DNA from: Candidatus Saccharimonadota bacterium
GTDB lineage: Bacteria > Patescibacteriota > Saccharimonadia > Saccharimonadales > Saccharimonadaceae
Assembly (NCBI GenBank): GCA_030528355.1
Contig: JAUMZA010000008.1
Span: forward strand, 1 to 48,033
Length of the DNA: 48,033 nucleotides
Reading direction: 5' to 3'
Part shown: piece after piece, positions 18,282 through 39,622 of the stretch
Layout of the letters: each line of letters starts with the position of its first letter
Numbering within the stretch: the first letter of the stretch is position 1
Made by a program: the position numbers and the translations under genes
The notes under the pieces: generated by a model
Seen by the model: only the letters and a program-made list of their open reading frames with translations
The model's database searches: none
What the model was told of the DNA's origin: nothing

Positions 18282-18283
18282 TT

Positions 18284-18508: not shown

Positions 18509-18521
18509 TATCTAGTAATAC

Positions 18522-21250: not shown

Positions 21251-21256
21251 ATTTAC

Positions 21257-21262: not shown

Positions 21263-21308
21263 GCAATATATACCGCTTGTGCCTAGCCAAAGCCTCAGAT
21301 TTCATCTA

Positions 21309-24451: not shown

Positions 24452-26226
24452 GATGAATATAACTCCGCAGGGTTAGTGGTGATGAGTGGATGTTCTTTTT
24501 CAGCCGCCACAACCTTAACGGCGACATGATTTTGGTCGGCGATAAGCAAAGCATCTCCTCGCTCGCAAGTGAGTAGAAAACTTTGCTCATATTCACTGAG
24601 GTTAAATTCGTTAACCACGCCTTTGATAGTCGTCGTATCCTGACGCATTAAAATTCGCAGCGCACTTTGCGAAGCGATGGCGCGGCCGTATTCGCTTTTT
24701 AGGAAATCGTTTGCTTGCTGCGATATGATTGACACGCCGAGATAATATTTGCGAGCCCGACGCACCAGTCCTGCTACAAACCGCGCCGACTCCTCGTGTT
24801 GCAATAAAATCCAGCCCTCGTCGATAATCAGCAATCGTTTTTCTGGTTTAGCCATGACTTGATTTTTCACAAAATTAGAGATGATCAACATCATGATTTG
24901 GCGCAAATTTTCTGGCAAATCTTTGATGTCGAAAATAACCAAGCGATTGTCCAGCTTAACATTTGTTTGCGCATTGAATACATCTGCTAACGAGCCAGAA
25001 ATATATTTTTCTAATTTTTCGCACAATTTTAACTGACCCAATTTTCGAAGTTCCGCATATAAATCTTCTAAAAGCGGCTGCTTGGTTTTTGACTTTTTGT
25101 AGATTTTCAAAACTGCTTTATCGATGGCGGCTTTTTCGCGCGCCGTTAAACTTTCAGCCATCAAACCGATTACGTCCATTAAATCTTGCGTGTGTTCAGA
25201 CAGGTCGCTAATTTCGTGAACGGTCGTTGCTAGGTCGAAGGGGTTAATTTTCTGTTTGCTTTTGGCGGATAATTTTATGTACGTGCCTTTTACCGATTCG
25301 GTGAGGCGTTTGTATTCACGCTCTGGGTCGATGACGATGACGCGCGTGCCTTGCATCAGTTGGCGTAAAATTTCGACTTTGGTGGTGTAACTTTTGCCAG
25401 CGCCCGACTGCGCAAATGTGATTGAGTTGGCGTTATGCAAACTAAACCTGTCCAAGATAATCAACGAATTATTTGATTTATTGACGCCGTAAAGAATGCC
25501 CGATTCTTGCACTAACTCTGACGACATAAACGGAAAAGTTAGGGCTGCGCTGGAACTATCGAGATTGCGTTTTTGCGCCAGCTGGTCTTCGCCGCGTGGC
25601 AAAATTGACTGCAATGCTTCCAACTGCTGATAACGCGCTACTTTTGAATAAAACAACCGCACCGACAGATTCGCTTCGAGCAACTTGGTGGTTTTATCAA
25701 GTTCTTCTTTAGTCTCAGAGCGAATACAAATGTATATCGCCATTTGGAATAATTTTTCTTGACCGCGCTGAATTTTATCACGCAAATCAATCGCCGATTC
25801 AAGCGGGTCGGTAATTTCCGAGCCAATAATCCGTCCTTCGCGCGTCATCGCCCGGCGCGTGGATTCAAGTTCGGTAATTTTACGATTTAGTTTTGGCAGT
25901 GCCGCTCGGGCATCTACTTCGTGTAGATGATAACTAATGTCGATGTCGTGATTAAAATGAATCAAGCTGTCCATCCAATCCGAACTCGCTACGAACGGAT
26001 ATCCAGAAATGAATAGCGTGCGCATGTACACGCCATCAATGCAAAGATAATCAACATTTTCTTCCAGCCCAGCGTAGGATAAAATATCCAGAGCGTCTTG
26101 TTCGCCAAACGTGATATTGAGTTCTTTTTGCCGCTCTTCGTGCTGGCGGTCACGACGGCGTTTCGGGGCGCTAATTGCGTTGCTGATTCTTTTGATAAAT
26201 ATTGGTGTATGTGATTTTTTAATCAT
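24448..26226 (-). CDS. VirB4/TraE-type conjugation ATPase
   Basis: A 592-aa protein. Walker A is FAQSGAGKSYTTKVEIL near residue 275, followed by VIVIDPEREYKRL. Walker B is KRLLIIDEGWILLQ, followed by ISQQANDFL as in VirB4 ATPases. It powers T4SS assembly and substrate passage at the inner membrane. The N-terminal domain is shorter than in classical VirB4. The separate upstream gene, overlapping by 4 nt, may supply the remainder. It has ATGA coupling on both sides. Confidence 0.9.
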   Translation of the reverse strand: MIKKSHTPIFIKRISNAISAPKRRRDRQHEERQKELNITFGEQDALDILSYAGLEENVDYLCIDGVYMRTLFISGYPFVASSDWMDSLIHFNHDIDISYHLHEVDARAALPKLNRKITELESTRRAMTREGRIIGSEITDPLESAIDLRDKIQRGQEKLFQMAIYICIRSETKEELDKTTKLLEANLSVRLFYSKVARYQQLEALQSILPRGEDQLAQKRNLDSSSAALTFPFMSSELVQESGILYGVNKSNNSLIILDRFSLHNANSITFAQSGAGKSYTTKVEILRQLMQGTRVIVIDPEREYKRLTESVKGTYIKLSAKSKQKINPFDLATTVHEISDLSEHTQDLMDVIGLMAESLTAREKAAIDKAVLKIYKKSKTKQPLLEDLYAELRKLGQLKLCEKLEKYISGSLADVFNAQTNVKLDNRLVIFDIKDLPENLRQIMMLIISNFVKNQVMAKPEKRLLIIDEGWILLQHEESARFVAGLVRRARKYYLGVSIISQQANDFLKSEYGRAIASQSALRILMRQDTTTIKGVVNEFNLSEYEQSFLLTCERGDALLIADQNHVAVKVVAAEKEHPLITTNPAELYSS

Positions 26227-26861
26227 TTAATTTCGCTCCCGTCTCGCATGAGCGCGGTGTGAATTGTTTGCAAAGCGCGTTCAGTTAGCGGTTGAATTTT
26301 TGCCTGCGCCGGGCTGTAAAAACTGTAGAACAAATCAAGCAATTCGAGGCTATCAAGCTGGTCGGCGCACATGCCGAGCCGCGCCATACCTTTGGCGATA
26401 ATATCGATACGCAGCTTGAGCTGTTCGCGAATTAAATCAAAATCAGCCTTGTTGTCGGATGGTCGAAAAGGAATGATGATATAAAAATGCCGCGTCAAAA
26501 TCTTGTTGTCGGTGATGAGCGAACGAATGAATTCATCGTAATTTTTCAGCTGAGTTTTGTAGACAGGAATCGTCTCGTTCTGTAGCCGATAGTTCAAATC
26601 TTCTAAATATCCGTCCATATCAATCTCGCGCGTGCGTACTAAAATTTGAATCGACCAACCAATCGAATTGAGAAAACTTTCGTAGGTATCAATAATTGCA
26701 TCTTGCTCATCCTCGCTACGCAGTTCAAAATTTAGCGCCGAAACGGACAAAATCACCCGATAATTATTCTGCGGCAACAACAAAATTCCGTCGCGCACGC
26801 CCTTTAACGCAATCTGCTGCCTGGCGCTAGATTTAGCGGTTGACTTTCGTAAACCGAACAT
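26223..26861 (-). CDS. VirB4/TraC N-terminal-domain-like conjugation protein
   Basis: A 212-aa cytoplasmic protein without membrane helices. It resembles the N-terminal portion of TraC/VirB4 proteins (FYIIIPFRPSDNK; IDTYESFLNSIGWSIQILV), suggesting a split VirB4; this is recognition by pattern, not by search. ATG at 26861 (MFGLRKS) is preferred to an upstream start at 26912, because AAAGGAGG lies 6 nt before it. It overlaps PrgI by 29 nt and VirB4 by 4 nt. Confidence 0.7.
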   Translation of the reverse strand: MFGLRKSTAKSSARQQIALKGVRDGILLLPQNNYRVILSVSALNFELRSEDEQDAIIDTYESFLNSIGWSIQILVRTREIDMDGYLEDLNYRLQNETIPVYKTQLKNYDEFIRSLITDNKILTRHFYIIIPFRPSDNKADFDLIREQLKLRIDIIAKGMARLGMCADQLDSLELLDLFYSFYSPAQAKIQPLTERALQTIHTALMRDGSEIK

Positions 26862-27339
26862 GCAAACCTCCTTTCTTGTCAGTTTCAAAACGAACATCAG
26901 CGGTTGGATCATCTATGATTTGGCGAGTTTTGATGGTTGATATGTCATCTAATTTTTCTGGCTTTTGCTGCTTTTTGGCTGGTTGATTTACGGCTTCTTC
27001 ACCTCCAGGCGAAGCACTTTTATATTCATCGCGAAATGCGATGGTGTTTTTATCGAACAAATAATATTTTGGTCGTAAATTGTAGCGCAGTACCGTCACC
27101 AGCCAAAGCGCGATGATTTTACCTTTAACGCGAATCGACAAAACTCCACAAACGATCAAACTTAACGCCATCAAAATATATTTATAAAGCGCACCGTTCA
27201 TCACTGGCGGCAGTAACGTAAAAATCCCTGCACTCAAGAAAACAGGAATCATCAAAAGTACTATTTGCGAAAAACCAAGCTTGCCGATAATTCGGTCTTC
27301 TACGGTAGTAACTTGCGCGGGGACGACAGTTGTTTTCAT
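26833..27339 (-). CDS. PrgI-family membrane protein (VirB3-like)
   Basis: A 168-aa protein. N-terminal VPAQVTTVEDRIIGKLGFSQ is typical of PrgI-family proteins of CPR and Gram-positive conjugation loci. Two close membrane helices follow (residues about 25-70). A conserved WLVTVLRYNLRPKYYLF segment precedes a polar tail of about 65 residues. It corresponds to the VirB3 position between the VirB6-like and VirB4-like genes. It is ATGA-coupled to the VirB6-like gene upstream. Confidence 0.82.
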   Translation of the reverse strand: MKTTVVPAQVTTVEDRIIGKLGFSQIVLLMIPVFLSAGIFTLLPPVMNGALYKYILMALSLIVCGVLSIRVKGKIIALWLVTVLRYNLRPKYYLFDKNTIAFRDEYKSASPGGEEAVNQPAKKQQKPEKLDDISTIKTRQIIDDPTADVRFETDKKGGLHVRFTKVNR

Positions 27340-28850
27340 GATTTTTTACCTCGCTGTTTGGTTACTTTTATTTTCGAATCGGCGCGGTAAGTTGTGCCAG
27401 TTTTTAGCGGTTTTGACTCGGGCATATTAACAACGGTTGGATTATTTTTACTGCGTGGATTAACTGAATAGGTGATTTCCGCATCGCCTTTTTTATTCAG
27501 ATAACTTACTTTCATCGGCGATTTTGTTTGGCGCGCGACTGTTTCGAGAGTTGAGTGCACGCGCGCTTTTTTGGCAGCGTGAGTGGTGTTCTTGACGCGC
27601 TGGGTTGTTTTGTGCGTCACTTTTGAACCAGTGCCTGTCATGTAGCTAACGCCATTCATAAATTGACCACCCAGCTTCTTTAGATTGCGCGCACCCATGC
27701 TAACGAAACTAAATTGCATCATCACACCTTGAACTTTTAACAAAGTCAGGACAGTTGCTATACCTGCTACCATCGCCATCAAGGTGTCGGGAAGAGCGTT
27801 GTTGCCGGTGGTCGCCATGCCAGAAAACAGCGACGACGCTAATTGCAGGATAACCACATGAACAAACAGAACAAAAATTGTCGACAGGAACGTCTTCATC
27901 GAAGTTTCGGCAAAATCGCGAAACCCCGGCACTAGCCACAGCATACTCACTAGCGGCGACAAAACGGTACCGATGAATAAAGTAATCAAGCGCATAACAT
28001 AATACACCAACAATATGATCGAGCAAATCAAAAATGCCACCATAATTAGCAGTGCCGCCACGCCCTGACCAGACGTTTTTTCGACAACTTTGATGAGCGT
28101 GTTCCAAACGGTTGATGCGCCCGAAACTTGATTTACAGCTGAGATGAGAACGTTAGATAGGCTAATTATGCCATCGATCAAAAATATAGACGTGTTCATT
28201 AGTAAAAATATCATCGCTATGCGTGGCAGCAGGTGCTTGACTTCAACTTCGTCAAAGCCAAAACTTGAAGCGCTCATTACTTGAAATCCGACTAGCGCCA
28301 CGATCAAAATTAACAACACGTCAGCTATGCCAACAATCGCTAGCCATAGATTAAACACGGCTTTATTGCTCGCAATTAGCGGCGTCGATTTAGTGAAAAA
28401 TTCAAGTGCATTCAAGAATGGCGAGGCTATGGCGTTAATGATTGACGACAATAATCCCGTCACAGCTTTGATGATCATTTCGATCAAACCGTTGTTTTCT
28501 GACTTGGGTGTAACGGCCTGCAGGTTCGGTAGATTTGCGTCGTTTGGATTTTGTACCGCTTGATATGAGTCATTCAAAATAGAAACTATCGTCACAGCTG
28601 CTAGCACGATGACCAGCCCAGTCACGGCTTTTTTAGCAATGCTTTTAGCGTGCTCCATGCGGTCTGGCTTGCCGCTACTGGTCATGTAAATATAGCCAGC
28701 GTGAGCCAAAAAGAAAGCGCAAGCCAGCGACGCGATACCCGACAAAATTTTGGTGCTCGGTAAAACATAATCGCGCACAGTTTTTATGGCTCCAGCTGTA
28801 TCGGCAAAGAATACTAAATTGCTAGTAAAAATATCGACAAAGTCGAACAT
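27336..28850 (-). CDS. VirB6/TrbL-like polytopic channel protein with N-terminal VirB2-like segment
   Basis: A 504-aa protein. About eight hydrophobic helices and a basic C-terminal tail of about 110 residues match VirB6/TrbL topology. Residues about 30-105 (GYIYMTSSGKPDRMEHAKS then GLVIVLAA) look like the pilin-like protein encoded next (GFTYITSSGNPEQLDKAKR then GLAIVIAA), suggesting a duplicated and fused VirB2-like unit. GGAGG lies upstream of the ATG. The protein probably forms the inner-membrane part of the DNA channel. Confidence 0.82.
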   Translation of the reverse strand: MFDFVDIFTSNLVFFADTAGAIKTVRDYVLPSTKILSGIASLACAFFLAHAGYIYMTSSGKPDRMEHAKSIAKKAVTGLVIVLAAVTIVSILNDSYQAVQNPNDANLPNLQAVTPKSENNGLIEMIIKAVTGLLSSIINAIASPFLNALEFFTKSTPLIASNKAVFNLWLAIVGIADVLLILIVALVGFQVMSASSFGFDEVEVKHLLPRIAMIFLLMNTSIFLIDGIISLSNVLISAVNQVSGASTVWNTLIKVVEKTSGQGVAALLIMVAFLICSIILLVYYVMRLITLFIGTVLSPLVSMLWLVPGFRDFAETSMKTFLSTIFVLFVHVVILQLASSLFSGMATTGNNALPDTLMAMVAGIATVLTLLKVQGVMMQFSFVSMGARNLKKLGGQFMNGVSYMTGTGSKVTHKTTQRVKNTTHAAKKARVHSTLETVARQTKSPMKVSYLNKKGDAEITYSVNPRSKNNPTVVNMPESKPLKTGTTYRADSKIKVTKQRGKKS

Positions 28851-28857
28851 GGGCGGG

Positions 28858-29196
28858 TTATCCTCCGAAGGCTTGTCGTGCCAAAGTCGTCACGATATTC
28901 GCCAAAACAAACGCCGCGATGACGATCGCCAAACCAATTGCTGACCACGTGATAGTACGCTTTGCTTTGTCGAGCTGCTCGGGATTTCCCGAACTAGTGA
29001 TATAGGTAAAGCCGCCAGCAACAAAAAAGCCGGTCGCTACCAGACCGGCTAGTCCCGCCACCACTTGGATGACGCTTCGTATAAAATTCTCAACATTGCT
29101 GACACCCGCTGGCGCAGCTAGGGCTACGTTCGCCAACACAAATGGCGCTCCAGCCACGATAAATATTGCTACCAAACAATATGTTTTTCTTGACAC
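28858..29196 (-). CDS. VirB2/TrbC-like pilin of the transfer system
   Basis: A 112-aa protein. Signal peptide to ANVALAAPA (cleavage after Ala near 27-29), then two hydrophobic helices separated by a short basic loop with YITSSGNPEQLDKAKR, the VirB2/TrbC pattern. It starts with GTG at 29196, with AAGGGAG 7-8 nt upstream. It is the first gene of the seven-gene transfer operon. The mature product is about 83 residues, normal for a T4SS pilin. Confidence 0.85.
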   Translation of the reverse strand: MSRKTYCLVAIFIVAGAPFVLANVALAAPAGVSNVENFIRSVIQVVAGLAGLVATGFFVAGGFTYITSSGNPEQLDKAKRTITWSAIGLAIVIAAFVLANIVTTLARQAFGG

Positions 29197-29249
29197 TATA
29201 AACTCCCTTTCACCAGAGTGTGAACTTTGTGTTTACCTCTGTTATTTTT

Positions 29250-29278
29250 ACGTTAGCAGGCATCAATTTACTTGACAA
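29250..29278 (-). promoter_or_regulatory. Candidate promoter of the transfer operon
   Basis: TTGTCA (29273-29278) and TAACGT (29250-29255), 17-nt spacer, leaving a leader of about 45 nt with a Shine-Dalgarno. The -10 is a poor match. Confidence 0.35.
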
Positions 29279-29419
29279 GACGACACTTAAGAGTCTGCTA
29301 CGGTAGCATCAGTGCGTTAGTTTCTGAAAGGTTTGTTAAATTTATAGAGGTGAAGCTATGTTTTAGTTTTAGCCAAAATTAAATTAACGAACTTAACAAA
29401 ATGATATTTAGCTGCTAAC

Positions 29420-29448
29420 TTTACACCAATAAAAATTACAAGTAAACT
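29420..29448 (+). promoter_or_regulatory. Promoter of the small membrane protein at 29455
   Basis: TTTACA and TAAACT with a 17-nt spacer; the -10 ends 6 nt before the ATG, another leaderless layout. Confidence 0.45.
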
Positions 29449-29454
29449 AAAAAT

Positions 29455-29763
29455 ATGAGCAAACTAAAATCTGAAAAAGTCGTCATATCTTCGCCGTTAT
29501 CGTTTATTGGTTCGGCGAAGCGCATTTGGAAAATCACGGACGTGGAGAATCCAGTGGCAAAGGTGCTGCTTGGTTTGGTTGCTGCCGCGCTAATTTTATT
29601 TGCTTGGGTTTTTGTGGCGTTTTGGTATGTGCTGATTTATGTTGTTTTTGGAATTTTGTTCATTCCATATCGGCTGCTGCGACGGAGTAGTCGTAAGCAA
29701 AAACAAGCAAAATTGCGGCACCGTGAAGTACTGGACGCAATAGAGAAAAATCGTAACTTATAA
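29455..29763 (+). CDS. Small two-helix membrane protein, unknown
   Basis: A 102-aa protein. The N-terminal 40 residues are polar, followed by a long hydrophobic stretch (VLLGLVAAALILFAWVFVAF and the next 20 residues, two helices). The C-terminal tail of about 30 residues is very basic (LLRRSSRKQKQAKLRHRE). It lies between the divergent transfer operon and the HxlR gene, whose 3' end it overlaps by 6 nt. The function is unrecognised; it may be an accessory envelope protein of the element. Confidence 0.55.
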   Translation: MSKLKSEKVVISSPLSFIGSAKRIWKITDVENPVAKVLLGLVAAALILFAWVFVAFWYVLIYVVFGILFIPYRLLRRSSRKQKQAKLRHREVLDAIEKNRNL

Positions 29764-30144
29764 TCGCCGCAACACTGTCACGCGTTTCTTATCGTAAGTT
29801 TTCTGGGATTTGTGCAGAACTTCAGAATGAGAATCAAACCACATGGTTATGTCGCCCGTCAACTTCAATAATTCGAGACCGGTTTTCGTTAATTCATATT
29901 CAACCCGCGGCGGAATCGTTGGATAGAAAAAGCGCCGGACGATGCCGGCGCGTTCTAGCTGCTTGAGGTGCTCGGTGAGCACTTTTTGAGTCACCCCCGG
30001 AAGAGAGTGGTGTAGCGCAGAATAGCACTTAGTCTCAGTGCCAAGCGAAAGAATGATCGCGATAGTCCATTTGCGAAACAGCAGGCTTGTCATGAAATCG
30101 TGCGAATCGGCATACTGTTTTTTGGATACAGTAGTTTTTGTCAT
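29758..30144 (-). CDS. HxlR-family transcriptional regulator
   Basis: A 128-aa winged-helix protein with the HxlR layout: LLFRKWTIAIILSL, then SLPGVTQKVLTEHLKQLERAG (recognition helix), then FYPTIPPRVEYELTKTGLEL in the wing. The usual Cys near the N-terminus of redox-type HxlR proteins is not present there; one Cys lies near residue 40. GGGAGG precedes the ATG. It likely controls the cargo region to its right (amidohydrolase, S66), or the element. The 215-nt gap upstream (30145-30359) contains no gene. Confidence 0.88.
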   Translation of the reverse strand: MTKTTVSKKQYADSHDFMTSLLFRKWTIAIILSLGTETKCYSALHHSLPGVTQKVLTEHLKQLERAGIVRRFFYPTIPPRVEYELTKTGLELLKLTGDITMWFDSHSEVLHKSQKTYDKKRVTVLRRL

Positions 30145-30359
30145 GGTTACCTCCCGTTGATATTGAATTGATATGTAATTTAATAAAAATTCCTCAAACT
30201 AAATACTCCCAGAGGCACCCTCCGGAAGTACTTGTCATACATGATAACACATTTCTGTAAAAATGTCTATTTGTGCGTTTCTATGCGTGAATAACAGTAA
30301 GTCTATATTGTTCAAGCTATTAAAGTATGCAGTTATGCAGTGATTGTGTAATTTGATGA

Positions 30360-31400
30360 CTAGTCGCTGAAATTAAAGAATCTTTTGGCGTTATCGTGAA
30401 AAATTTTCTGTTTAGCAACAGACTGTTCTTCTATAGGTAGTCTCTTTATGGCAGACTTCAAAGCATCTAAGCATAGCCAATGAGCATGAATTGCATTATC
30501 TGCAAGATGTTTATATTCCGCGTGCTCTATCGGATCTTGCCAGTGATATAAGTGACTGGTGGTTATACGTTGACCTTTGCTAGGGTGAATGTATGGAACT
30601 GACCGTAATAAATTCAAAGGTTCGTCCGTTCCGTACATTATTCTGTCTGCCCCGAGTGTATTGATGGCACGATAAACAACATCTTCTGACGGATTGAGGG
30701 CTGTATCCATTACGAAATCTGTATCTTCGGCAATAGCCTCGTATGCATCTTGGAGTCCAGGAATGTCAAACTTCGACAATCCTAGGTGAGCTAAAGCAAC
30801 TTTTAGCTTAGGAAAGTCTTTTTTTAAGTTTATTATATCGTCAAGACTCTCGGTGATAACTTTGGGTGGATGCAGTACGAGGGGAACTGATTGATTTTCT
30901 GCGGCTTCTAAAATCTCTGGCTTAAACACTTCATAAACATGTGTAGCGTTAGGGTCTAAGTATGAATAGTACATCTTTAGTCCGGCAATGCGTGGATCAT
31001 GCAGCATGTCTACTGTATATGGAATATTATCAGGAAGACCATAAAGAGCTACTCTGTCGCTCTCAGGGCAATTGTCAAGAAGATAAGAATTTGCGGCTAT
31101 ATGTGCTATACCTTTAAATGTTTTCGCAAAGCGTAACGATCTTATCTCCGTGTTAGGATGTAGTACTTCATGCACCGCCTGTGATTCTTCAATTGTGTAG
31201 GCGGGGAAAGTTGACAGCATGTGGTTATAAGCCTTACTCGGCACATCAACAACATGTTCGGGAAGGTTTGAATGGGCGTGTGAATCTATTATAGTATGAG
31301 GCAGTCAGTCGGCATACTCTTTAATCTTTTCACTTTCTTCATGTGTAATACTTAGTGCATGTTCAAAATATGCTTGTCTCTGTGATTCTGATACTTTCAT
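30360..31400 (-). CDS. Amidohydrolase-2 family metal hydrolase interrupted by an in-frame TGA
   Basis: A 346-position frame from ATG 31400 with one TGA at 31305-31307 (codon 32). After the TGA comes IIDSHAHSN, the metal-binding HxH of TIM-barrel amidohydrolases. LHPPK, ALAHLG and YGTDEP then supply the later His and Asp ligands. The longest ATG-started frame after the stop (31244) omits HxH and would be inactive. A strong promoter (TGCTATACT, 6 nt before ATG 31400) is intact. Either a fresh nonsense mutation, readthrough of TGA-C, or a sequencing error. The substrate is unknown. Confidence 0.7.
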
Positions 31401-31406
31401 TTTATA

Positions 31407-31412
31407 AGTATA
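31407..31412 (-). promoter_or_regulatory. -10 box of the amidohydrolase gene
   Basis: Extended TGCTATACT, 6 nt from the ATG at 31400. It indicates that codons 1-31 before the TGA are truly the gene start. Confidence 0.55.
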
Positions 31413-31473
31413 GCATTAATAAGAGAAAAAGAAAGCAACATTGGCTGTTCGACTGTTATCGCATCTCTTGTGC

Positions 31474-32517
31474 CTAAGAATAGTTGAATGTTATAGTATC
31501 GTTAATAGGCGACAACGTTGCACTACCTCCGATTGGCAGCACAATCTGTGGGTCTGTGTGTCCAAAGTCTACATTTTGAACGATTGGTATTGTTTTGTTA
31601 TACTCACGAATAGTTGTAACAACTACTTCTCTTTGATCGGCACGATATTTTGCTTTTTGATCGGCTGTATTCTGCTGTCCAAAATCCCATGCTTTTGGAC
31701 GACCAACCATGACTCCGTTTAAGTGATTAAACCATCCTCGCTCACCAAGTCCGACTAACAGGTATTTTACAATCCAGTGTGGAGGGATGTTTTCGGCTGA
31801 CTCTAAGAAAAGAATTTTACCACCTAATTCTTTTGCCTCCGGAAGGTATTTTTCAGCACTACACTGAGCCACCATGCTCTCTATACAGCCACCCCAAAGT
31901 AGTCCGCTTGCATTATGTTCGCCATCCCAAATTAGTCTGTCATTTTTTTCTAAAGGGCGAACTCCGTTGAGAGACTCTTTGTCGGCCCAGTCAAGTCCTA
32001 TATCGTTATACACGGGACTACCGCTTGTTTTCAGCGTTCCGCCATCAAATAAAGCTTTGTTTAACGATTCTACTGTTATATCCATCATCTCTTTTTGCAT
32101 AGCGAACTGCGTCATGACACAGCCTCCATAGTATGAAGGTATGCCAAGATTTGACAGATAGATATGTAGATGGGTGTTGTCGCTAAAACCAAAGAATGGT
32201 TTTGGATTTTCTTTGATTACATCAACTTTTAGAAGCTTTAATAATTTTATTTGATCTGTCCCACCAATAGATGCGATAATTGCCTTTATGCTTGGATCGC
32301 CAAATGCTGCCATAATGTCAGCAGCTCGATCTTGCAGCGATGACCCCATGCGCCTGGTTGTCGGATATTCTATAGGTTCAAGGTTGAAAACTGTCCGTAT
32401 ACGATCTAGACCAAGATCTTGCACCCACGGAAATAATCCAGGTAGACCGTTAGAAGGAGATAAAATGGCAACCTTATCTCCTTTTTTTAGCTTTGGCAAT
32501 GTTATATAACTATTCAT
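31474..32517 (-). CDS. S66-family serine peptidase, MccF-like (microcin C immunity type)
   Basis: A 347-aa cytoplasmic protein. The S66 catalytic triad is visible: Ser112 in FFGFSDNTHLH, Glu239 in ILFLESAEN, and His320 in VDFGHTDPQIVLPIGG. Length and the insert LLWGGCIESM fit the MccF branch (about 345 aa) rather than the shorter LdcA murein LD-carboxypeptidases. MccF cleaves microcin C and related aminoacyl-nucleotide antibiotics. ATG 32517 follows TATAAT by 7 nt. Its neighbours are an AspRS and an AsnRS. LD-carboxypeptidase activity remains the alternative. Confidence 0.85.
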   Translation of the reverse strand: MNSYITLPKLKKGDKVAILSPSNGLPGLFPWVQDLGLDRIRTVFNLEPIEYPTTRRMGSSLQDRAADIMAAFGDPSIKAIIASIGGTDQIKLLKLLKVDVIKENPKPFFGFSDNTHLHIYLSNLGIPSYYGGCVMTQFAMQKEMMDITVESLNKALFDGGTLKTSGSPVYNDIGLDWADKESLNGVRPLEKNDRLIWDGEHNASGLLWGGCIESMVAQCSAEKYLPEAKELGGKILFLESAENIPPHWIVKYLLVGLGERGWFNHLNGVMVGRPKAWDFGQQNTADQKAKYRADQREVVVTTIREYNKTIPIVQNVDFGHTDPQIVLPIGGSATLSPINDTITFNYS

Positions 32518-32524
32518 ACACACT

Positions 32525-32530
32525 ATTATA
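32525..32530 (-). promoter_or_regulatory. -10 box of the S66 peptidase gene
   Basis: TATAAT 7 nt upstream of ATG 32517. Confidence 0.55.
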
Positions 32531-32570
32531 ACCGATTCTTTAAAAATTGCTTATAATACTGGGTATGAGT

Positions 32571-32605
32571 GGGTGGGCACTGGTTTTAGATGCCAGTGCC
32601 CACCC
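32571..32605. terminator. 13-bp perfect hairpin after the AspRS gene
   Basis: GGGTGGGCACTGG pairs perfectly with CCAGTGCCCACCC around a 9-nt loop. It lies 33 nt past the AspRS stop, so it probably ends the aaRS transcript. A rightward TATAAT at 32552-32557 would start a short transcript just before the hairpin, giving a 27-codon frame at 32565 or a small RNA; weak evidence. Confidence 0.65.
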
Positions 32606-32637
32606 ATGGAACGTGCAAACACGCTCCATTCTCACGA

Positions 32638-33936
32638 TCATGGTGTGAGACGGTTGATCCCGCGGTAGAGGAAAGTAACCTCCCGCACGTTGCCGAGTCC
32701 CGTGATGCACATGAGCAGCCGGGTCAAGCCAACGCCGAACCCACCGTGTGGCGGGCAGCCGTACCGGAAGAAACCGAAGTAGTCCTCCAGGGGAGCGAGA
32801 GCATAACCCTTCTCCTTAGCCTGCTTGACCAATTGCTCGTGGCGATGCTCACGCTGAGCACCTGTCGTGATCTCAAGCCCTTTCCACAGAAGGTCAAAGC
32901 TCTTGGTCACGTTGGTGTCGGGGTAGCGCATGTGGTAGAATGCGCGCACCTCGGCAGGATAGTCAGTCACAAAAACGAACTCGTGACCATACTCCTCGGC
33001 GATCAGACGGTAGAGCAGACGCTCTCCCTCGGGGTCGAGGTCCGCCTTCTCCGTGATCTCGTGACCCAGCTTTGCAAGCCACTTACGTGCCTCGCTCAGC
33101 GTGATCCGCGGGAACGGATCTGTCGGCACTTCGAGAGTTGTCCCGAAGACCGCCTCAAGCTCGGAGCCGTGCTTTTCAGCAACGACACCCAGGATGAAGG
33201 TGAGGAATTGCTCCTCGAACTCCATCACCGTCTCGTGCGACTCCACCCACGCGAGCTCCATGTCCACCGAGGTAAATTCGGTGTCGTGACGGGAGGTGTG
33301 CGACGGGTTAGCTCGGAAGACCGGACCGATCTCAAAGACACCCTCGAAGCCACCAGCAATCGCCAGTTGCTTGTAGAACTGCGGCGACTGGGCTAGATAT
33401 GCCGTCCGGCCGAAGTACGGGAGGGAGAACAACTCCGCCCCAGACTCGCTAGCCGTACTGAGAAGCTTCGGCGAGTGAATCTCGACGAGCCCGCGCTCCG
33501 CCCAGAACTGGCGCATGGCCTGCTCGAGCGTCGTTTGGACCCGCAAGACCAACTGGCTCTCGGGAGAGCGCAGGCTGACCTGACGGTGGTCCATGCGTGC
33601 CTCAAGCGATGCACCCGCCTGGATTGGCAGGGGCTCGGCGAGGTTCGCGACTTCGATTGCCGTCGGAATGACCTCGATGCCGCCTAGTTTGACCTGAGGC
33701 GCCTTGACCACCTTACCGGTAACGATGACTGCGGACTCGGGAGTGAGCTGCTCGATCAGCTGAGCGAGCGTCTCACTCTTGGACTTCAGGTGCGTGACCT
33801 GAGCCTTGCCGGTGGAGTCGCGGATGATGACGAACTGCACACTCTTGTGCACCCTCACCGCTTCCACGAATCCTTTGACGGTCACTACGTGACCAACCGA
33901 CCGGGGGATCTCCCCAGCCATGACCCTTGCGGACAT
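32638..33936 (-). CDS. Aspartate-tRNA ligase, archaeal/non-discriminating-type
   Basis: A 432-aa class IIb synthetase: N-terminal OB-fold anticodon domain (VTVKGFVEAVRVHKSVQFVI), and SPKLLSTASESGAELF. YLAQSPQFYKQ is the AspRS signature. Motif 2 is FEIGPVFRANPSHTSRHDTEF, and motif 3 is GGFGVGLTRLLM. The length matches archaeal-type AspRS (about 430), not the long bacterial type (about 590). ATG 33936 is chosen with AAGGA upstream; the longer frame overlaps asnS. Base composition is visibly richer in G+C than the rest of the element. It is paired with AsnRS 13 nt upstream. Confidence 0.88.
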   Translation of the reverse strand: MSARVMAGEIPRSVGHVVTVKGFVEAVRVHKSVQFVIIRDSTGKAQVTHLKSKSETLAQLIEQLTPESAVIVTGKVVKAPQVKLGGIEVIPTAIEVANLAEPLPIQAGASLEARMDHRQVSLRSPESQLVLRVQTTLEQAMRQFWAERGLVEIHSPKLLSTASESGAELFSLPYFGRTAYLAQSPQFYKQLAIAGGFEGVFEIGPVFRANPSHTSRHDTEFTSVDMELAWVESHETVMEFEEQFLTFILGVVAEKHGSELEAVFGTTLEVPTDPFPRITLSEARKWLAKLGHEITEKADLDPEGERLLYRLIAEEYGHEFVFVTDYPAEVRAFYHMRYPDTNVTKSFDLLWKGLEITTGAQREHRHEQLVKQAKEKGYALAPLEDYFGFFRYGCPPHGGFGVGLTRLLMCITGLGNVREVTFLYRGINRLTP

Positions 33937-33949
33937 GACATTCCTTTCT

Positions 33950-35275
33950 CTAGTGGTTGATGTTCCGACCCGCGGAGCGCGGGAACGGAATTGTGTCCCG
34001 CACGTGCGGGATGTCGAGCAGCCACCGAAGCAGCCGCTCGAGACCCATGCCGAACGCGATGTGTGGCACGCAAGCGGCCTTGTGCACATCGACAACGAAG
34101 TCGTAGCGCGAGTCACCGAGTTTGTCCTTCTCGTCCATCCGCTCGTCGAGCATTTGGGGTTCGAAGATTTTCTCGGCAACTCCGCACAATTCGCCGTAGC
34201 CACGTGGAGCGATGAGATCAGCCACCTTGGTAACGGTGGGGTTTTCCTCGTCAATCACATACGGAAACGGCTCGACGTTGCGCGGGATACCCATGACCCA
34301 GAACGGGCCATTGAAGAGCTTTGCGAGCTCCTCTTCGTCCTTGGACGAGATGCCGACGCCGAGAACGGTATCGGACCCCTTCGTCTGGACATGGGCGACT
34401 GCATCTTCGTAGGTGATACGCGGGAACGGAGTCTGGAAGTCGTTGGGACGCAGGGTCGCGCCCAGGTAGTCCATCTCCTCCGCACATTCCTCGGGAAGAC
34501 GATTGTACAGGTGACTCAATAGGCTCTCGACGATCTCGATGATATCATCACGATCGCCAAAAGCGAGCTCAGCCTTGATGTGCCAGTACTCCTTGAGATG
34601 CCGCTTGCTTCGTGACTCTTCGCCGCGGAAGCTCGGCCCCATATTGTAGACACGCTCGAAGGCCATGGTAGCCGCCTCAAGGAAGAATCCCGCACACTGC
34701 GTCAGGAACGCATTCTGACCATGAACGTCAATCTTCATGGCAGTGCTGTCGTCGTAGAGCGGTGCAAGCACAAGGATCGGAGCGTCAAACTCCAAGAACC
34801 TATTCAACTCGAACCATTCGCGAACTACCCGCATGACCTTTGCTCTGAACTTCAGGATGGCCATGTAGTGCGGTTCACGCAGGTACACCGCTTTGTTGGC
34901 GGTGATGTGTCCTGCCATCTTCGGGTCGAAGATATCAAACCCAGCGCGAGGTTGCGGCTGAAGGTTGAGGGTGTCGCGTGCGATAACCTCAAACGTTTCT
35001 GCCATGATCTCGCGCTGATCGCCTCGTGTGGCGATGATACCCATGACGCGAACTGCCGACTCAACAGGAGTCGAGACAAATGCGTCGTAGTCATCGCTTG
35101 ACATTGACTGGATGCGAGCTACAACTTGAATTGTGCCCGTAGAGTCAACAACGTCAAGGAACGCAACACGCCCGTGACGACGCCGACTCTTGATCCATCC
35201 GATTGCTTCAATGACTGTTCCGTCAGGTGTGACGGTTGAATCAAGCAGATCGCGCACGTACTGCTTCTTGAGCAT
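33950..35275 (-). CDS. Asparagine-tRNA ligase-like protein
   Basis: A 441-aa class IIb synthetase. N-terminal OB fold (IEAIGWIKSRRRHGRVAF) and catalytic core with AFLTQCAGFFLEAA, YNMGPSFRGEESRSKRHL, and EYWHIKAELAF (the AsnRS pattern). GYGELCG and motif 3 AFGMGLERLLRWLL follow. It retains the OB domain, so it is not the truncated asparagine synthetase A relative. ATG 35275 follows GGAAGGA at proper distance. It forms a two-gene unit with AspRS, with the same high-G+C codon use, pointing to joint transfer. Specificity for Asn is inferred from motifs. Confidence 0.82.
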   Translation of the reverse strand: MLKKQYVRDLLDSTVTPDGTVIEAIGWIKSRRRHGRVAFLDVVDSTGTIQVVARIQSMSSDDYDAFVSTPVESAVRVMGIIATRGDQREIMAETFEVIARDTLNLQPQPRAGFDIFDPKMAGHITANKAVYLREPHYMAILKFRAKVMRVVREWFELNRFLEFDAPILVLAPLYDDSTAMKIDVHGQNAFLTQCAGFFLEAATMAFERVYNMGPSFRGEESRSKRHLKEYWHIKAELAFGDRDDIIEIVESLLSHLYNRLPEECAEEMDYLGATLRPNDFQTPFPRITYEDAVAHVQTKGSDTVLGVGISSKDEEELAKLFNGPFWVMGIPRNVEPFPYVIDEENPTVTKVADLIAPRGYGELCGVAEKIFEPQMLDERMDEKDKLGDSRYDFVVDVHKAACVPHIAFGMGLERLLRWLLDIPHVRDTIPFPRSAGRNINH

Positions 35276-35367
35276 GGAAATTCCTTCCAATAGACGCTGG
35301 ATGTAACCGTATTCAGTTGTTAAACTGCACATAGCTGAGATCGTGAAAATCAAGCTATGCGAATCCT

Positions 35368-35396
35368 AGTATTACACATTAATCATGGAGTATCAA
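35368..35396 (-). promoter_or_regulatory. Candidate promoter of the AsnRS-AspRS pair
   Basis: TTGATA (35391-35396) and AATACT (35368-35373), 17-nt spacer. The leader of about 85 nt contains a 7-bp hairpin (CATAGCT/AGCTATG). No T-box motif was found. The rest of 35397-35630 is AT-rich with no gene seen. Confidence 0.4.
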
Positions 35397-35630
35397 TATT
35401 TTATTCTATATAAATTGCAGATACTTAAATTCTTTTAGATCGACTAAACGATAAAGCGTAAGAACAGAGAAATGTATTGCCCTAAAGTACATCAAATAAT
35501 TATTGTCCCAATAGGAGACACTATTACTTCACGTACTGCCCAATTATACAGCTCGTACAAACCTATCAAGGTCGTATTCGCCCATGAAAATCATTTTGTC
35601 TTTTGAAGTGGCATTTTCAGGGGAACCTCC

Positions 35631-35643
35631 ACCTGTGACAGGT
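35631..35643. promoter_or_regulatory. 13-bp perfect palindrome, candidate operator
   Basis: ACCTGTGACAGGT, about 50 nt upstream of the small protein gene at 35696. A shifted partner TACGTA...TACGTA follows. Likely regulator-binding; the protein is unknown. Confidence 0.4.
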
Positions 35644-35695
35644 TTGCCGTGCGAGCCTGTACGTAGACTCCGTTACGTAAAGTAAAGGAGGAAGT

Positions 35696-35980
35696 ATGCC
35701 AATCGTAGCAAAGCAAGTAGCAACCGCCACCGCTTATAGTGGGTGGAGTAATCGTGAGACGTGGGTAATGAATATGTGGCTTGCGAACGACGAAACTTAC
35801 TGCGATGAGGTGCGCCGAATCATCAAAACATGCGATGAACATGAACAAGCTGAGCGACTTGAGTCGTTGATACGAGATGAGCTTGAAGGTGGCTTAGAAG
35901 AATCAGGATTGTTGGGTGACTTGCTCACAGCCTCTCTCGGTCGCGTCAGTTGGCAAGAGATTGTAGAGAATAATCGCTAA
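35696..35980 (+). CDS. Small plasmid-type protein with WSNRETW motif
   Basis: A 94-aa soluble acidic protein. GWSNRETWVMNMWLANDETY near residues 16-35 resembles a family of small proteins common on plasmids and phages (DUF7249-like; recognised by eye only). The remainder is helical (DEHEQAERLESLIRDELEG). AAAGGAGGAAG directly precedes the ATG, so it is probably well translated. It lies between the aaRS cargo and the hairpin cluster of the element. Function unknown. Confidence 0.7.
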   Translation: MPIVAKQVATATAYSGWSNRETWVMNMWLANDETYCDEVRRIIKTCDEHEQAERLESLIRDELEGGLEESGLLGDLLTASLGRVSWQEIVENNR

Positions 35981-36006
35981 CTTCACCGTCCTGGGTATGA
36001 CAAGAA

Positions 36007-36347
36007 ACTGCCCGAAGCATAAGGTGCTTAGTTATCAACTTTACACTTGATTTACATCACCGGGCAGTGTCCATACTTACCCCGCTCACTTGACATACGC
36101 CTTGCTGGCGCAGTCAAGATGAGCGGATGTAAGAATGAACGAGCTTAGGGCGGAATCTGGCAAAATTAGTTGATAAATCGTTATCTTATTTCACAAAAAG
36201 ACAAGCCAGCTAGCGTGTACTGCGCTGACGCACAAAATACGCCATCTGTCTGTCATTTGCGAAATAAGCCTCACCCTGAAAGCTATGCGGCGGCTTTCGT
36301 GCGACCATTGCAAGCCCGCCGGAGGGTGCGCCTTGCAATCATCGCAC
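36007..36347. other. Hairpin cluster, candidate oriT / single-strand origin
   Basis: The 400-nt gap 35981-36380 has no gene but has at least four hairpins. ACTGCCCG/CGGGCAGT (36007-36068) has an inner AAGCA/TGCTT. CCGCTCA-CTTGAC pairs with GTCAAG-a-TGAGCGG (36082-36126, 13 bp with one bulge, plus inner GCC/GGC). GAAAGC/GCTTTC lies at about 36279-36298. GTGCGA-cc-ATTGCAAG pairs with CTTGCAAT-ca-TCGCAC (36299-36347). It adjoins the replication-relaxation gene, as expected for a transfer origin. Confidence 0.5.
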
Positions 36348-36380
36348 GGCCGATTGACACATATGCATCCTCAAATTAAT

Positions 36381-37187
36381 TCACAACTCATCTAATGAAA
36401 GAAGCTCGCCGAGCTCATCAATATTCGACCAAATCGCAGAATTATCACCCAGTAAGCTCTCAATCGTCGCTGTATATATCTCAATTTCATCATCCAGGTC
36501 AAACCGGCTCCGCACAGCATGAGCAGTGCGTCGCAAGCGATTTTCTGTGGCTGGATTTTCTAGCAAAAATAGAAGCTTTGGTAGATCGCTGCCAGTCGCA
36601 TCCCAGCCACCGTCATCGAAAAATTCCATATAATTTACCAAGCGGCGATTGATGGCGCTAGGCGGCATGTCTTTAGACACGACATCAAAGAAAAATCGTC
36701 GCAATCCATCGTTCGTTTTGAGCGACAAAAAGGCGTCGGGCGGATTAGCCGGAAAGTAGCTGTAAAGTGCCATTTCACGCCGCAAAAATACTTTTAAGGG
36801 TGGATGTTTGTGTTGTAGTCTATTGGCATGCACATAGACTTCAACTACATGATCAACAAACGATTGACCGACAACTTTATCGCGGTAGCTCGCTTTGATA
36901 ATAGCGTCTGTGACGCGCTCGCTGCCATGAATCAATTGCAACCGCCTAAGTCCTTTTGGCGTCAAATAATACGCCGCTGGCACGCCTCGCAATTTAAAGC
37001 TCTTATCATACCGTCTAGCCACAAAACCATGTTTCATTAACACATTCAGCTTTTCAAACAAATTTGAACTCGACTTAATACCCAGACTATCCGCCAACAA
37101 CTGACGACTACCAAATCGGTATTTATACAGCGTTTCCAGTATGTCTATCTGCCCCTGCTTGAGCGCTGAACGTTTGTCTACTTTCAT
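36381..37187 (-). CDS. Replication-relaxation family protein (candidate relaxase/initiator)
   Basis: A 268-aa protein. It has an N-terminal winged-helix domain (ILETLYKYRFGSRQLLADSL, then LFEKLNVLMKHGFVARR and AYYLTPKGLRRL). A C-terminal alpha/beta domain (DHVVEVYVHANRL, FFFDVVSKDMPPSAINRRL, FFDDGGW) matches the pattern of the replication-relaxation (Replic_Relax) family of Gram-positive mobile elements. No HUH motif or other classical relaxase gene is in the element, so this is the best candidate for processing DNA at the adjacent hairpin cluster. A TATACT box (37213-37218) and AAAGG lie upstream. Confidence 0.75.
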   Translation of the reverse strand: MKVDKRSALKQGQIDILETLYKYRFGSRQLLADSLGIKSSSNLFEKLNVLMKHGFVARRYDKSFKLRGVPAAYYLTPKGLRRLQLIHGSERVTDAIIKASYRDKVVGQSFVDHVVEVYVHANRLQHKHPPLKVFLRREMALYSYFPANPPDAFLSLKTNDGLRRFFFDVVSKDMPPSAINRRLVNYMEFFDDGGWDATGSDLPKLLFLLENPATENRLRRTAHAVRSRFDLDDEIEIYTATIESLLGDNSAIWSNIDELGELLSLDEL

Positions 37188-37212
37188 TCTAAACCTTTCA
37201 CGATTCCTTTCT

Positions 37213-37218
37213 AGTATA
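37213..37218 (-). promoter_or_regulatory. -10 box of the replication-relaxation gene
   Basis: TATACT about 26 nt before the ATG, within an AT-rich 276-nt divergent region (37188-37463) that otherwise shows only a TTGTAGTACAA-type partial palindrome near 37340. Confidence 0.4.
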
Positions 37219-37450
37219 TTTATATAAAAAAAGAGAAAAATAGCAATAGATAACAGTAGTTTTATAGATAAATTATAGTGTATATCGATATTCGGTATAT
37301 TTTACATTATAAAATAGCTAAAAACTATTGAATATTTGTAGTACAAATAGTACAATTTAAGTAGAGGTTTTAATCATAAAGCTGGCTCGTTAATAACACA
37401 ACAAAACTAGGCTTCAAACAGTAGCGCTTTTTGGTTATCGCCCCGTGTAG

Positions 37451-37456
37451 TATACT
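37451..37456 (+). promoter_or_regulatory. -10 box of the RHH-recombinase operon
   Basis: TATACT 7 nt before ATG 37464; leaderless layout. Confidence 0.5.
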
Positions 37457-37463
37457 GGGATTA

Positions 37464-37676
37464 ATGAGCCAAGGAAGAATTCAGTTACAAATCGACACGT
37501 CAAAAGAAGTGCGCAACCGAGCCAAAGCCGTTGCGTACAGCCAAGGCATGAGCCTGACGGAATTGGTGCTAAAAGCACTGGCGACGGTTGGCGATAAAGA
37601 GCTGAAGCAGCTGATTGAAAAGGACTTGCAGGAGCGTTCCGGGCGCGGGCGTCCACAGCAATCCAAGCCTAGTTGA
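37464..37676 (+). CDS. Ribbon-helix-helix-like small DNA-binding protein
   Basis: A 70-aa protein. RIQLQIDTSKEVRNRAKAVA followed by GMSLTELVLKALATVGD matches the beta strand-helix-helix pattern of Arc/CopG-type repressors. The tail is basic (RSGRGRPQQSKPS). ATG 37464 is chosen over an upstream in-frame ATG because the -10 box lies between them. It is the first gene ahead of the recombinase, so it may autoregulate the excision operon. Confidence 0.7.
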   Translation: MSQGRIQLQIDTSKEVRNRAKAVAYSQGMSLTELVLKALATVGDKELKQLIEKDLQERSGRGRPQQSKPS

Positions 37677-37705
37677 TGTTATGACGAGTCGCGACAGGAG
37701 GGATT

Positions 37706-37888
37706 ATGGCGCGACCAAAAGGAAGTAAAAATAAACCAAAAGCACCGCTCGTGGAGCAATTTTCGTTCACGACCGAGCAGCGGATTAGATTGGTGGCAAA
37801 TTTAATCGTCGAGAAAATTATAGAAGACGGCGCGTTTGCTAAAAAGCTAATCACGATATTGGAGGATGATAAAAATGTCTCCAAATAA
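37706..37888 (+). CDS. Small basic AT-hook-like protein, coupled to recombinase
   Basis: A 60-aa protein beginning MARPKGSKNKPKAP, with an RPKGSKNK core like an AT-hook, then an amphipathic helical part (RIRLVANLIVEKIIEDGAFA). GGAGGG lies a few nt before the ATG. Its 3' end overlaps the recombinase start by 14 nt and carries the recombinase ribosome site GGAGG. A recombination directionality factor or accessory DNA-binding role is possible but unproven. Confidence 0.6.
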   Translation: MARPKGSKNKPKAPLVEQFSFTTEQRIRLVANLIVEKIIEDGAFAKKLITILEDDKNVSK

Positions 37889-39611
37889 TCAGCCACGAAT
37901 TGGTTTGCTGGCAATACGCGTTTCTTCTGACAAGCAGGGTCTTGACGGCGACTCACCCGAAGCGCAGCGCGAGCAAGGCGAAGCTTACGCCAAGGCGCAT
38001 AATATCATAATCACCGAGACGATTATTTTACTCGAATCAGCGTCGCACGAAACACAGCCGATGCAAAAAGTAATTGATGTTTGCAAAGACAAAAGCAAAG
38101 GTTTTCAGGTCGTGCTAATAAAATCAATCGACCGCTTCACGCGCGGTGGCGGCGACTATTATTCACCGTTGAAGCGGCAGTTGACTCGGCTGGGTATCGC
38201 CCTTGAGGATATGTACGGCGTGATTGGCAGGCAGCAAATTAACACACTGGAGCACACCGGGTTTAAGTATTATTGGAGTGAGTTTAATCCGACGCAAAAG
38301 TCTGAATATTTGGAAGCGGAACGTGCCAAAGATGAGATGCGCGACATTATGAGCCGAATGATCGGCGCAGAAATTCGCTACACCCAGCTCGGTTATTGGA
38401 TGCGCCGTCCCCATTATGGTTTTCGTAGTGTCAAGGTGGATACGAAAAATGGTCGGCGCACGATTTTGAAGCCCGATGAGAGTGAGGCGAAGTTTATCAT
38501 AAAACTTTTTGAAATGCGCGCCGCTCATATTTATACCAATCAGCAAATCGCCGACGAGCTAAATTCAATGGGCTTTCGCTCGCGCGTTACGATTGTGCGT
38601 GACAAGTACGACCGAACCAAAGTCAAACGGCAAATCGGCGGCAAGAAAATGACCGCTAAGATGATCGATCAGTACGCTAGCAAGCTGGTTTATTGTGGCA
38701 TCATCAAAGAAAAGTGGACGCACAACCAGCCGGTCAAAGCGCAGTTTGATGGATTGGTTAGCGTTGAACTTTTTAATGAAGCTAATCGCGGACGGATTTT
38801 TGTGGAGATTGACAGCCGCGACATGATAACTATCAAGCGTAGAGCCGTGCCAGAGCACCTGAAAAATAAACAAATCTACAATCCGGAATATCCGTACAAA
38901 CAGGTTGTTGCTTGCCCGAAGTGTAGTAAGACTCTTTCTGGCAGCGCTTCGCGTGGCAAGATGGGTGCGTATTATCCGGCATATCATTGTAGTCGCAATG
39001 GGCATTATTTCCGCGTGCCCAAGCCCGAATTTGACAAGACGCTTGAGGATTTTGTGCGAACTATTACCGTAAAGCCGGAGTACGTTGATGATATTATCGC
39101 TGTTATTGCCGAGCTGTGGCGCGAACGTCAAGCAAAACAGCTTGAAGCTAACCAGCAGCGCTTAGAATACCGCCAGAATCTGCAAAACCAAATTCGGGCG
39201 ACCGTAGACAGGATGCGCGTTGTCACGAGCGAAACGGCTCTTACGTACCTAGAAGAAGATATCGTTAATGCCGAAACTGAGCTAGCAAAACTAGACAAAG
39301 AAATCGCCAATCAGCCCAACCTGCAAGCCGAATTCGACCAGGTCTTGCAATACGCCAAATATATTTTGGAACACCTGCCAGAACTACTACTTGACCTCTG
39401 TAATCCCTTGCGGAAAGCCGCCTTTTTTGCCGCTATCTTCAACAAAATCCCAACCTATGACGAAATAAACTTTGGAACTCACAAAAACAGCCCGCTACCA
39501 GAGGTAAACGAGCTATTTCATATCCGAATGGATGATAAATCCTTTGATGGTGACCTCACGGGGAATCGAACCCCGATTGCCAGGATGAAAACCTGGTGTC
39601 CTAACCGTTAG
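37875..39611 (+). CDS. Large serine recombinase whose 3' end is swapped by integration
   Basis: A 578-aa frame in the integrated state. Resolvase catalytic domain: AIRVSSDKQ with Ser17. Recombinase domain: GYWMRRPHYGFRS, and IYTNQQIADELNSMGF. Zinc ribbon: CPKCSKTLSG...YHCSRNGH. A coiled-coil region lies at about 420-480. ATG 37875 has GGAGG 9 nt upstream, whereas ATG 37866 touches it. The last 19 residues (DLTGNRTPIARMKTWCPNR) are antisense tRNA-Glu. The native 43-residue tail lies at 17696-17824, so the circular form would encode 602 aa. The enzyme catalyses integration and excision of the element. Confidence 0.93.
   Translation: MSPNNQPRIGLLAIRVSSDKQGLDGDSPEAQREQGEAYAKAHNIIITETIILLESASHETQPMQKVIDVCKDKSKGFQVVLIKSIDRFTRGGGDYYSPLKRQLTRLGIALEDMYGVIGRQQINTLEHTGFKYYWSEFNPTQKSEYLEAERAKDEMRDIMSRMIGAEIRYTQLGYWMRRPHYGFRSVKVDTKNGRRTILKPDESEAKFIIKLFEMRAAHIYTNQQIADELNSMGFRSRVTIVRDKYDRTKVKRQIGGKKMTAKMIDQYASKLVYCGIIKEKWTHNQPVKAQFDGLVSVELFNEANRGRIFVEIDSRDMITIKRRAVPEHLKNKQIYNPEYPYKQVVACPKCSKTLSGSASRGKMGAYYPAYHCSRNGHYFRVPKPEFDKTLEDFVRTITVKPEYVDDIIAVIAELWRERQAKQLEANQQRLEYRQNLQNQIRATVDRMRVVTSETALTYLEEDIVNAETELAKLDKEIANQPNLQAEFDQVLQYAKYILEHLPELLLDLCNPLRKAAFFAAIFNKIPTYDEINFGTHKNSPLPEVNELFHIRMDDKSFDGDLTGNRTPIARMKTWCPNR
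39547..39553. repeat. attR core
   Basis: ATGGTGA, identical to 17691-17697; six of its bases are the TCACCA 3' end of tRNA-Glu on the minus strand. Confidence 0.7.
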
Positions 39612-39622
39612 ACGATGAGGCC
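39548..39622 (-). tRNA. tRNA-Glu(TTC), integration target
   Basis: 75 nt including CCA: acceptor GGCCTCA/TGAGGTC, anticodon stem CCAGG/CCTGG with loop TTTTCAT (anticodon TTC), and T loop GGTTCGATTCC. It is kept intact by the insertion but has lost its own terminator, and the recombinase gene now runs into it from the opposite strand. Confidence 0.97.

Follow-up and report, generated by a model that had tools for sequence, protein, structure and literature searches.

An attachment site very likely situated within the serine recombinase gene of ICE-like elements in Saccharibacteria and other Patescibacteria

Integrases altered by their own integration

The closest precedent, by analogy, for the principle described here is the phage Mx8 (IntP/intX), in which the attP core lies within the integrase coding sequence and integration exchanges the 3' end of the gene for host sequence, producing an altered C-terminus in what has been called a molecular switch (PMC6070905). 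Mx8 targets the 3' ends of tRNA-Asp genes, and its integrase is a tyrosine recombinase. In Islander, this integrase is listed as an exception of the tyrosine type, in that it reaches across attP (PMC4383910). The window analyzed here (one whole contig of 48033 bases, C14, from a 0.84-Mb genome assembled into 21 contigs) very likely shares with Mx8 the position of the attP core, and in both cases the two gene halves lie in one frame and after integration the gene still has its whole catalytic region but ends in a new C-terminus. Unlike the Mx8 type, the window enzyme carries Resolvase and Recombinase domains instead of being a tyrosine recombinase, so that the two would work alike without being relatives. 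Moreover, where Mx8 is a phage, the present elements are conjugative by gene content; their enzyme is a large serine recombinase with a conserved tail, a PLD gene is coupled to it, and tRNA genes of several kinds serve as targets.

In fuselloviruses and Thermococcales plasmids (SSV1, pTN3, and pT26-2) attP also lies in the integrase gene, usually at tRNA genes, and a review termed integrase self-disruption exclusively archaeal (PMC8371274). The suicidal integrases of the SSV type belong to the tyrosine recombinases and break up into Int(N) and Int(C), a more drastic outcome than the present one, where only about 43 C-terminal residues leave and the catalytic and DNA-binding parts stay together. 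The analogy to fuselloviruses drawn by a first-pass annotation of the window held in part, as these domains are unsplit here; that annotation had described a single case without naming Mx8, and the design was found family-wide. An inactivating split of the fusellovirus type was rejected because only a 43-codon tail is detached.

Other systems resemble the window in single respects. Integration of mycobacteriophage BPs and its relatives alters the C-terminus of the gene containing attP (PMC4557955), as here, although in the integration-dependent immunity of BPs this gene is the repressor and here it is the serine recombinase. When ICEKp1 integrates, the terminator of the host tRNA ends up at the distal end of the element and int expression becomes state-dependent (PMC13023037), which is akin to the window; however, it is the promoter that changes in ICEKp1, with the protein left as it was, whereas here the protein changes. 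The domain order and fold of the window enzyme are like those of the large serine integrases (SP-beta integrase, Bxb1, TP901-1, and TnpX). In the usual descriptions of those integrases, attP lies next to the gene and not within it. The literature searched, the coverage of which was partial, yielded no serine recombinase reported to have attP within its own gene, and within that limit, conjugative elements that combine this design with a serine recombinase are likely to form an undescribed family. The present family differs from Mx8, SSV, and BPs in the class of recombinase, in the host group, in having a conserved tail that can be detached and a PLD gene coupled to it, and in the variety of its tRNA targets.

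The recombinase gene and the two ends of the window element

The window gene encodes a large serine recombinase, as judged by domains, motifs, and overall fold; its activity in attP x attB recombination is inferred. The N-terminal resolvase-type catalytic domain (PF00239) scored 30.8 bits against a cut-off of 23.3, and the IR.S...Q motif with the conserved catalytic serine was invariant in 22 homologues. The Recombinase domain (PF07508) reached 20.5 bits in the window, slightly below the cut-off of 21.1, and 25.5 bits in the unsplit homologue L081. Additionally, the homologues exhibit invariant Cys pairs fitting a zinc ribbon, and long predicted helices (401-480) fit an inserted coiled coil. 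A predicted model of moderate confidence (pTM 0.38) matched serine integrases in Foldseek with an E value of 7e-17, and the best Foldseek matches of the unsplit homologue were the serine integrase complexes 9y66, 9dxh, 9dxf, and 9dxd and Bxb1 9iu2. A profile search of the PDB revealed no solved structure with detectable sequence kinship to the recombinase.

Table 1. Coordinates of the features in the window (positions in the 48033-base contig).
Feature	Position	Strand	Basis or remark
Intrinsic terminator beside the left core, inferred to be the displaced tRNA-Glu terminator	17662..17683	-	9-bp stem, T run; like the layout after empty tRNA-Glu genes in relatives
Integrated element, left core to right core, about 21.86 kb	17691..39553		Core repeat, phase, chromosomal flanks, layout in 25/25 same-contig pairs
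Left core ATGGTGA (attL)	17691..17697	+	Core repeat, phase
Detached C-terminal recombinase tail, 43 codons plus stop	17696..17827	+	Homologues in many elements; purifying selection; contiguous with recombinase in other genomes
PLD-like gene (PLDc_2, 153 aa)	17820..18281	+	Pfam; its ATG overlaps the last tail codons (ATGTTTAA)
Conjugation block	21312..29196	-	Pfam
Coupling protein	21312-23900	-	Pfam
CHAP	23852-24451	-	Pfam
VirB4/TraG	24451-26226	-	Pfam
PrgI	26836-27339	-	Pfam
VirB6/TrbL	27339-28850	-	Pfam
T4SS pilin	28861-29196	-	Pfam
Replic_Relax protein	36384..37187	-	Pfam PF13814
Large serine recombinase, integrated state	37875..39611	+	578 aa; Pfam Resolvase PF00239; 45 homologous loci
Hairpin and T run opposite the recombinase 3' end	39486..39517	-	Candidate replacement tRNA-Glu terminator; secondary, tentative
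Right core ATGGTGA (attR)	39547..39553	+	Common to recombinase and tRNA-Glu 3' end
tRNA-Glu (TTC), target gene, intact	39548..39622	-	ARAGORN

As verified on the sequence, the recombinase frame opens with the ATG at 37875 and closes with a TAG at 39609-39611; an alternative in-frame ATG at 37866 would give 581 aa. The frame passes through the right core and ends with 19 codons (39552-39608) that read antisense to tRNA-Glu. The left core shows an identical codon phase, an in-frame TGA lies to the left of it (17678-17680), and after the shared GGT the frame remains open for 43 further codons up to a TAA at 17825-17827. Joining recombinase and tail yields a frame of 602 aa from 37875, or 605 from 37866. 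The claims of the first-pass annotation on this geometry therefore held, namely that the recombinase crosses the right core and ends in 19 antisense-tRNA residues and that the same 7-mer at 17691, with matching phase and a TGA left of the core, allows a 602-aa join. Its further claim that the 43-codon frame has no start codon held only for the beginning of the tail, since potential starts exist farther inside (GTG 17714 and ATG 17771); the GTG is absent from other tails. The tail as a separate small gene was rejected, as a conserved start codon is missing at its beginning. Because ATGGTGA also occurs at 12380 (plus strand) and 23476 (minus strand), giving four copies in the 48-kb contig, the 7-bp match is weak evidence when taken alone. 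The predicted tail structure consists of one helix and two strands at low confidence (pLDDT mostly below 55).

The signatures of type IV secretion and coupling found in the element comprise the TraG P-loop, TrwB-type, T4SS pilin, TrbL, and PrgI, and the only relaxase candidates are the Replic_Relax protein and the PLD-like protein. An S66 peptidase is also encoded between the cores. The chromosomal flanks contain ABC transporter and FtsX genes on the left and tRNA-Glu and a GH5 gene on the right. By gene content, the element is ICE-like, tRNA-integrated, and conjugative, its excision and transfer being inferred. We also observed a second lysyl-tRNA synthetase, a class II-like gene carried as cargo (32641-34254, minus strand), and, near the left end, a GHKL-type ATPase gene beside a C5 cytosine methylase (18525-21250, minus strand), which possibly form a modification or defence pair.

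A conserved 60-aa ORF (37706..37888, plus strand; MARPKGSKNKPK...RIRLVANLIVEKIIED) overlaps the recombinase start, and homologous ORFs of 50-64 aa abut or overlap that start in all 15 elements checked. A Pfam search assigned no family to the 60-aa ORF; it possibly encodes a directionality factor or regulator, a function which is only inferred. In the inferred circle of the window element, this small ORF, the recombinase with its tail, and the PLD gene would lie in one run, and integration would cut inside the recombinase.

The flank at 17690, which we examined as a check on the reconstructed site, holds an intrinsic terminator (17683-17662) that points away from the site. Empty tRNA-Glu genes of relatives have a comparable terminator at the same place, a few bases past CCA, and in G435 the genes of both flanks are neighbours without an element. 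From this terminator layout we infer that the tRNA-Glu terminator now stands 22 kb from its gene. A search via the flank proteins for a close relative whose empty site could be compared base by base reached other genera only; support for the empty site thus rests on terminator and gene order, not on base-level identity. At the opposite end, the antisense hairpin was clear against synonymous-codon shuffles in tRNA-Glu elements (p of 0.05 or less in many), and was not family-wide (mean z of -1.1 over 35 non-independent sequences). We tentatively consider it possible that this hairpin stands in for the displaced tRNA terminator. The hairpin at 39486-39517 also appears to be maintained by paired changes in the tRNA-Glu elements.

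Homologous elements, conserved tails, and unsplit genes

Profile searches for tail and recombinase took in 393 genomes from the class plus 380 from the phylum, and the same-contig pairs given below were counted among the matches that these searches returned. In the genome collection, 45 homologous recombinase loci were found, almost all in Patescibacteria (Saccharibacteria, WWE3, Microgenomates, Shapiro-, Levy-, and Davies- lineages, and others). No relative of the recombinase turned up among viral contigs, and collections of phages and plasmids held only distant serine recombinases. Directly after the recombinase, a tRNA gene lies on the opposite strand in 33 of about 40 loci with a readable 3' end, the targets being Glu, Gln, Lys, Arg, and Ser; Leu and Gly tRNA sites were additionally seen in further elements. 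The recombinase ORF ends within the tRNA in all of these 33 loci except the frameshifted L010. Targets differ among independent elements, and therefore unrelated antisense-tRNA peptides occupy the same protein position. An Rfam search of the loci without a tRNA after the recombinase was empty. The integrated recombinases of the homologous elements are intact up to the core, so the short integrated form may possibly be fully active, without activity data for either form.

Homologues of the 43-residue tail were detected at the opposite element end in other genomes with 95, 79, 75, and 74% identity, followed by remoter ones, and a profile search widened the set to 22 curated tails sharing the core motif LGFTYYNGKV, which is conserved across distant Patescibacteria. 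None of the 22 has an in-frame stop. The pN/pS of the tail was 0.27 in the window's clade and 0.44 and 0.54 in two other groups; the tail is under purifying selection, with the reservation that synonymous sites are near saturation in these groups. The tail lies upstream of the recombinase on the same strand in 25/25 same-contig pairs, at distances of 4-33 kb, and its stop overlaps or adjoins the start of the PLD-like gene in 21 of 23 cases, unsplit G042 included, following the pattern ATGnnTRA (mostly ATGnnTAR). Across the shared core, the phase agreed in all 11 elements joinable at both ends, where 1/3 is expected per element; no clear core was found in the distant elements G011, G025, and G017. 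In one locus (L067, G021), two complete tails of the same orientation lie 4.7 kb apart upstream of one recombinase, which suggests stacked elements.

Homologues that carry the tail contiguously were found in G042/G457 C6, G733 C5, G537, G634, G008, and G776. On G042 C6, a contig shared with G457, a 626-codon frame comprises the recombinase contiguous with the tail and is followed by the overlapping PLD-like gene; no tRNA was found on this 28.6-kb contig. G733 C5 provides a second, unrelated unsplit frame of 613 codons, with a tail almost the same as in the split element G010. In the single-contig genome G537, an internal junction of recombinase C-terminus and tail (179 aa) is flanked upstream by a free tail and downstream by a recombinase ending at tRNA-Leu, a layout as expected for tandem integration, and its sister G534 has the same tail in the split state. 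G634 exhibits an attP-like internal junction with recombinase and tail contiguous, and short recombinase remnants fused to the tail occur in G008, G003, and G776. The junctions of G776 (TDDKSFDGEPTNINMELLF) and G008 (RMDDKSFDGELTNINVELLF) agree almost letter for letter with that predicted for the window (RMDDKSFDGEPTNINVELLF, DDKSFD|GE...). These unsplit homologues suggest a circular or tandem state, excision being inferred. The loci L263 (G537), L072 (G008), L073 (G003), and L266 (G776) look like tandem or remnant arrays, with an older recombinase end joined to the tail of the next copy.

The element of G029 (L031, L096) splits a DUF1846 gene, rather than a tRNA, exactly at profile position 204. 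Its left half matches the DUF1846 profile from 2 to 204 and runs on into the tail, the right half (204-331) is fused to the recombinase, and both recombinase halves are in frame. With both gene pairs in frame across the ends, removal of the element restores two genes at once.

Competing explanations and what the design would mean

Taken as a whole, the explanation of the window as a tRNA-integrated conjugative element with attP within the 3' part of its recombinase gene is likely, and the attP position with the C-terminal swap on integration, the core interpretation of the first-pass annotation that held, is very likely. It withstood both refuting conditions named in that annotation, since homologues do contain the tail and the left flank is of the kind found at empty tRNA-Glu sites. 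Four independent results carry the case: the unsplit junctions, the strand and order of the two ends together with their phase, the antisense tRNAs (and DUF1846), and the displaced terminator. The circle junction of the window itself is inferred, without read or PCR evidence. In the circle, the gene would encode the catalytic, recombinase, and zinc/coiled-coil regions plus the conserved tail of about 43 residues and run into the PLD-like gene; that the circular element expresses this tailed form is likely, expression being inferred. When attP recombines with a tRNA gene at its 3' end, the frame is cut at the core, so that the chromosomal copy has a short, tRNA-dependent antisense peptide in place of the tail, and the tail codons with the PLD gene are left at the far end, about 22 kb off, without promoter or start. 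The gene structure of the two states, the conservation, and the targets follow from the sequences themselves; activity is inferred. Since the tail would have a start and promoter only in the circle, selection on it is inferred to act there. As the tail is conserved and overlaps the start of the PLD-like gene, integration takes away a conserved part of the protein and breaks up a coupled operon. In the simplest reading, the tail would favour the integration reaction (attP x attB), its removal by integration itself would make the integrated state stable, and the shortened enzyme would remain for excision with the aid of a helper, for instance the conserved 60-aa protein encoded upstream. A protein fused to the C-terminus of a serine integrase can alter its direction (PMC5737554). 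This integration-competence module, whose loss stabilizes the integrated state, is the reading we favour, but the function of the tail is not shown and the reading could equally prove wrong. Whether the loss of the tail shifts activity or direction toward the integrated state is likewise evenly balanced; the claim of the first-pass annotation that the tail tunes stability or direction remains a suggestion without activity data.

One rival is a direction switch instead of a latch, in which the tailed enzyme would only integrate and the tail-less one would be a dedicated excisionase form, the state being read from the gene itself with little or no need for a separate directionality factor. The recombinase is intact in nearly all integrated copies, the altered Mx8 integrase is still active with a changed site preference (PMC6070905), and C-terminal fusions can change the direction of serine integrases (PMC5737554), all of which speak for it. 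Against it, the C-termini gained on integration are dictated by the tRNA concerned, differ in length and are unrelated to one another, and therefore have no specific function, so that only tail loss could act, and the conserved small upstream ORF resembles an ordinary directionality factor; we consider this switch unlikely. Similarly improbable is a layout without any switch, where both protein forms work alike and the overlap of tail and attP arises only from a site needing the vicinity of its gene and an operon running into the PLD gene. In its favour, integration severs the overlap of recombinase and PLD gene too, and selection could therefore be acting on PLD expression, with the tail serving to couple the two genes; in addition, the Mx8 integrase is reported to work without its last 30 residues (Magrini et al. 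1999). However, the tail is conserved as a protein with its LGFTYYNGKV core across distant Patescibacteria under purifying selection, which exceeds the needs of coupling or of a DNA site. Finally, the stop codon may have been lost by insertion beside a tRNA, the 7-bp match and 43-codon frame being coincidental. The four copies of the 7-mer in the contig and the frequent openness of antisense tRNA strands favour such chance read-through, but the contiguous forms, conserved tails, phase (11/11), order (25/25), DUF1846 split, and displaced terminator all but exclude it, and the contiguous homologues refute it.

The locus bears on how direction is controlled, a question central to the serine integrases and to their wide use as tools, and offers two natural protein forms that can be compared directly on attP x attB and attL x attR. 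Within the family, serine recombinases use many kinds of tRNA genes, a habit reported as rare. Its design also allows exact mapping of conjugative elements in Patescibacteria, whose mobile elements are poorly known and in which automatic annotation errs at both ends, calling the antisense-tRNA tail protein and missing the real tail. A bolder reading, which we hold to be less likely than not, is that of a phylum-wide conjugative family whose recombinase gene is itself the memory of its state. If it were true, the reaction product would remove the integration module of its own catalyst, fully expressible only in the circle, and uncouple the PLD-like gene, and directionality would be built into the structure of the gene rather than into a separate factor.
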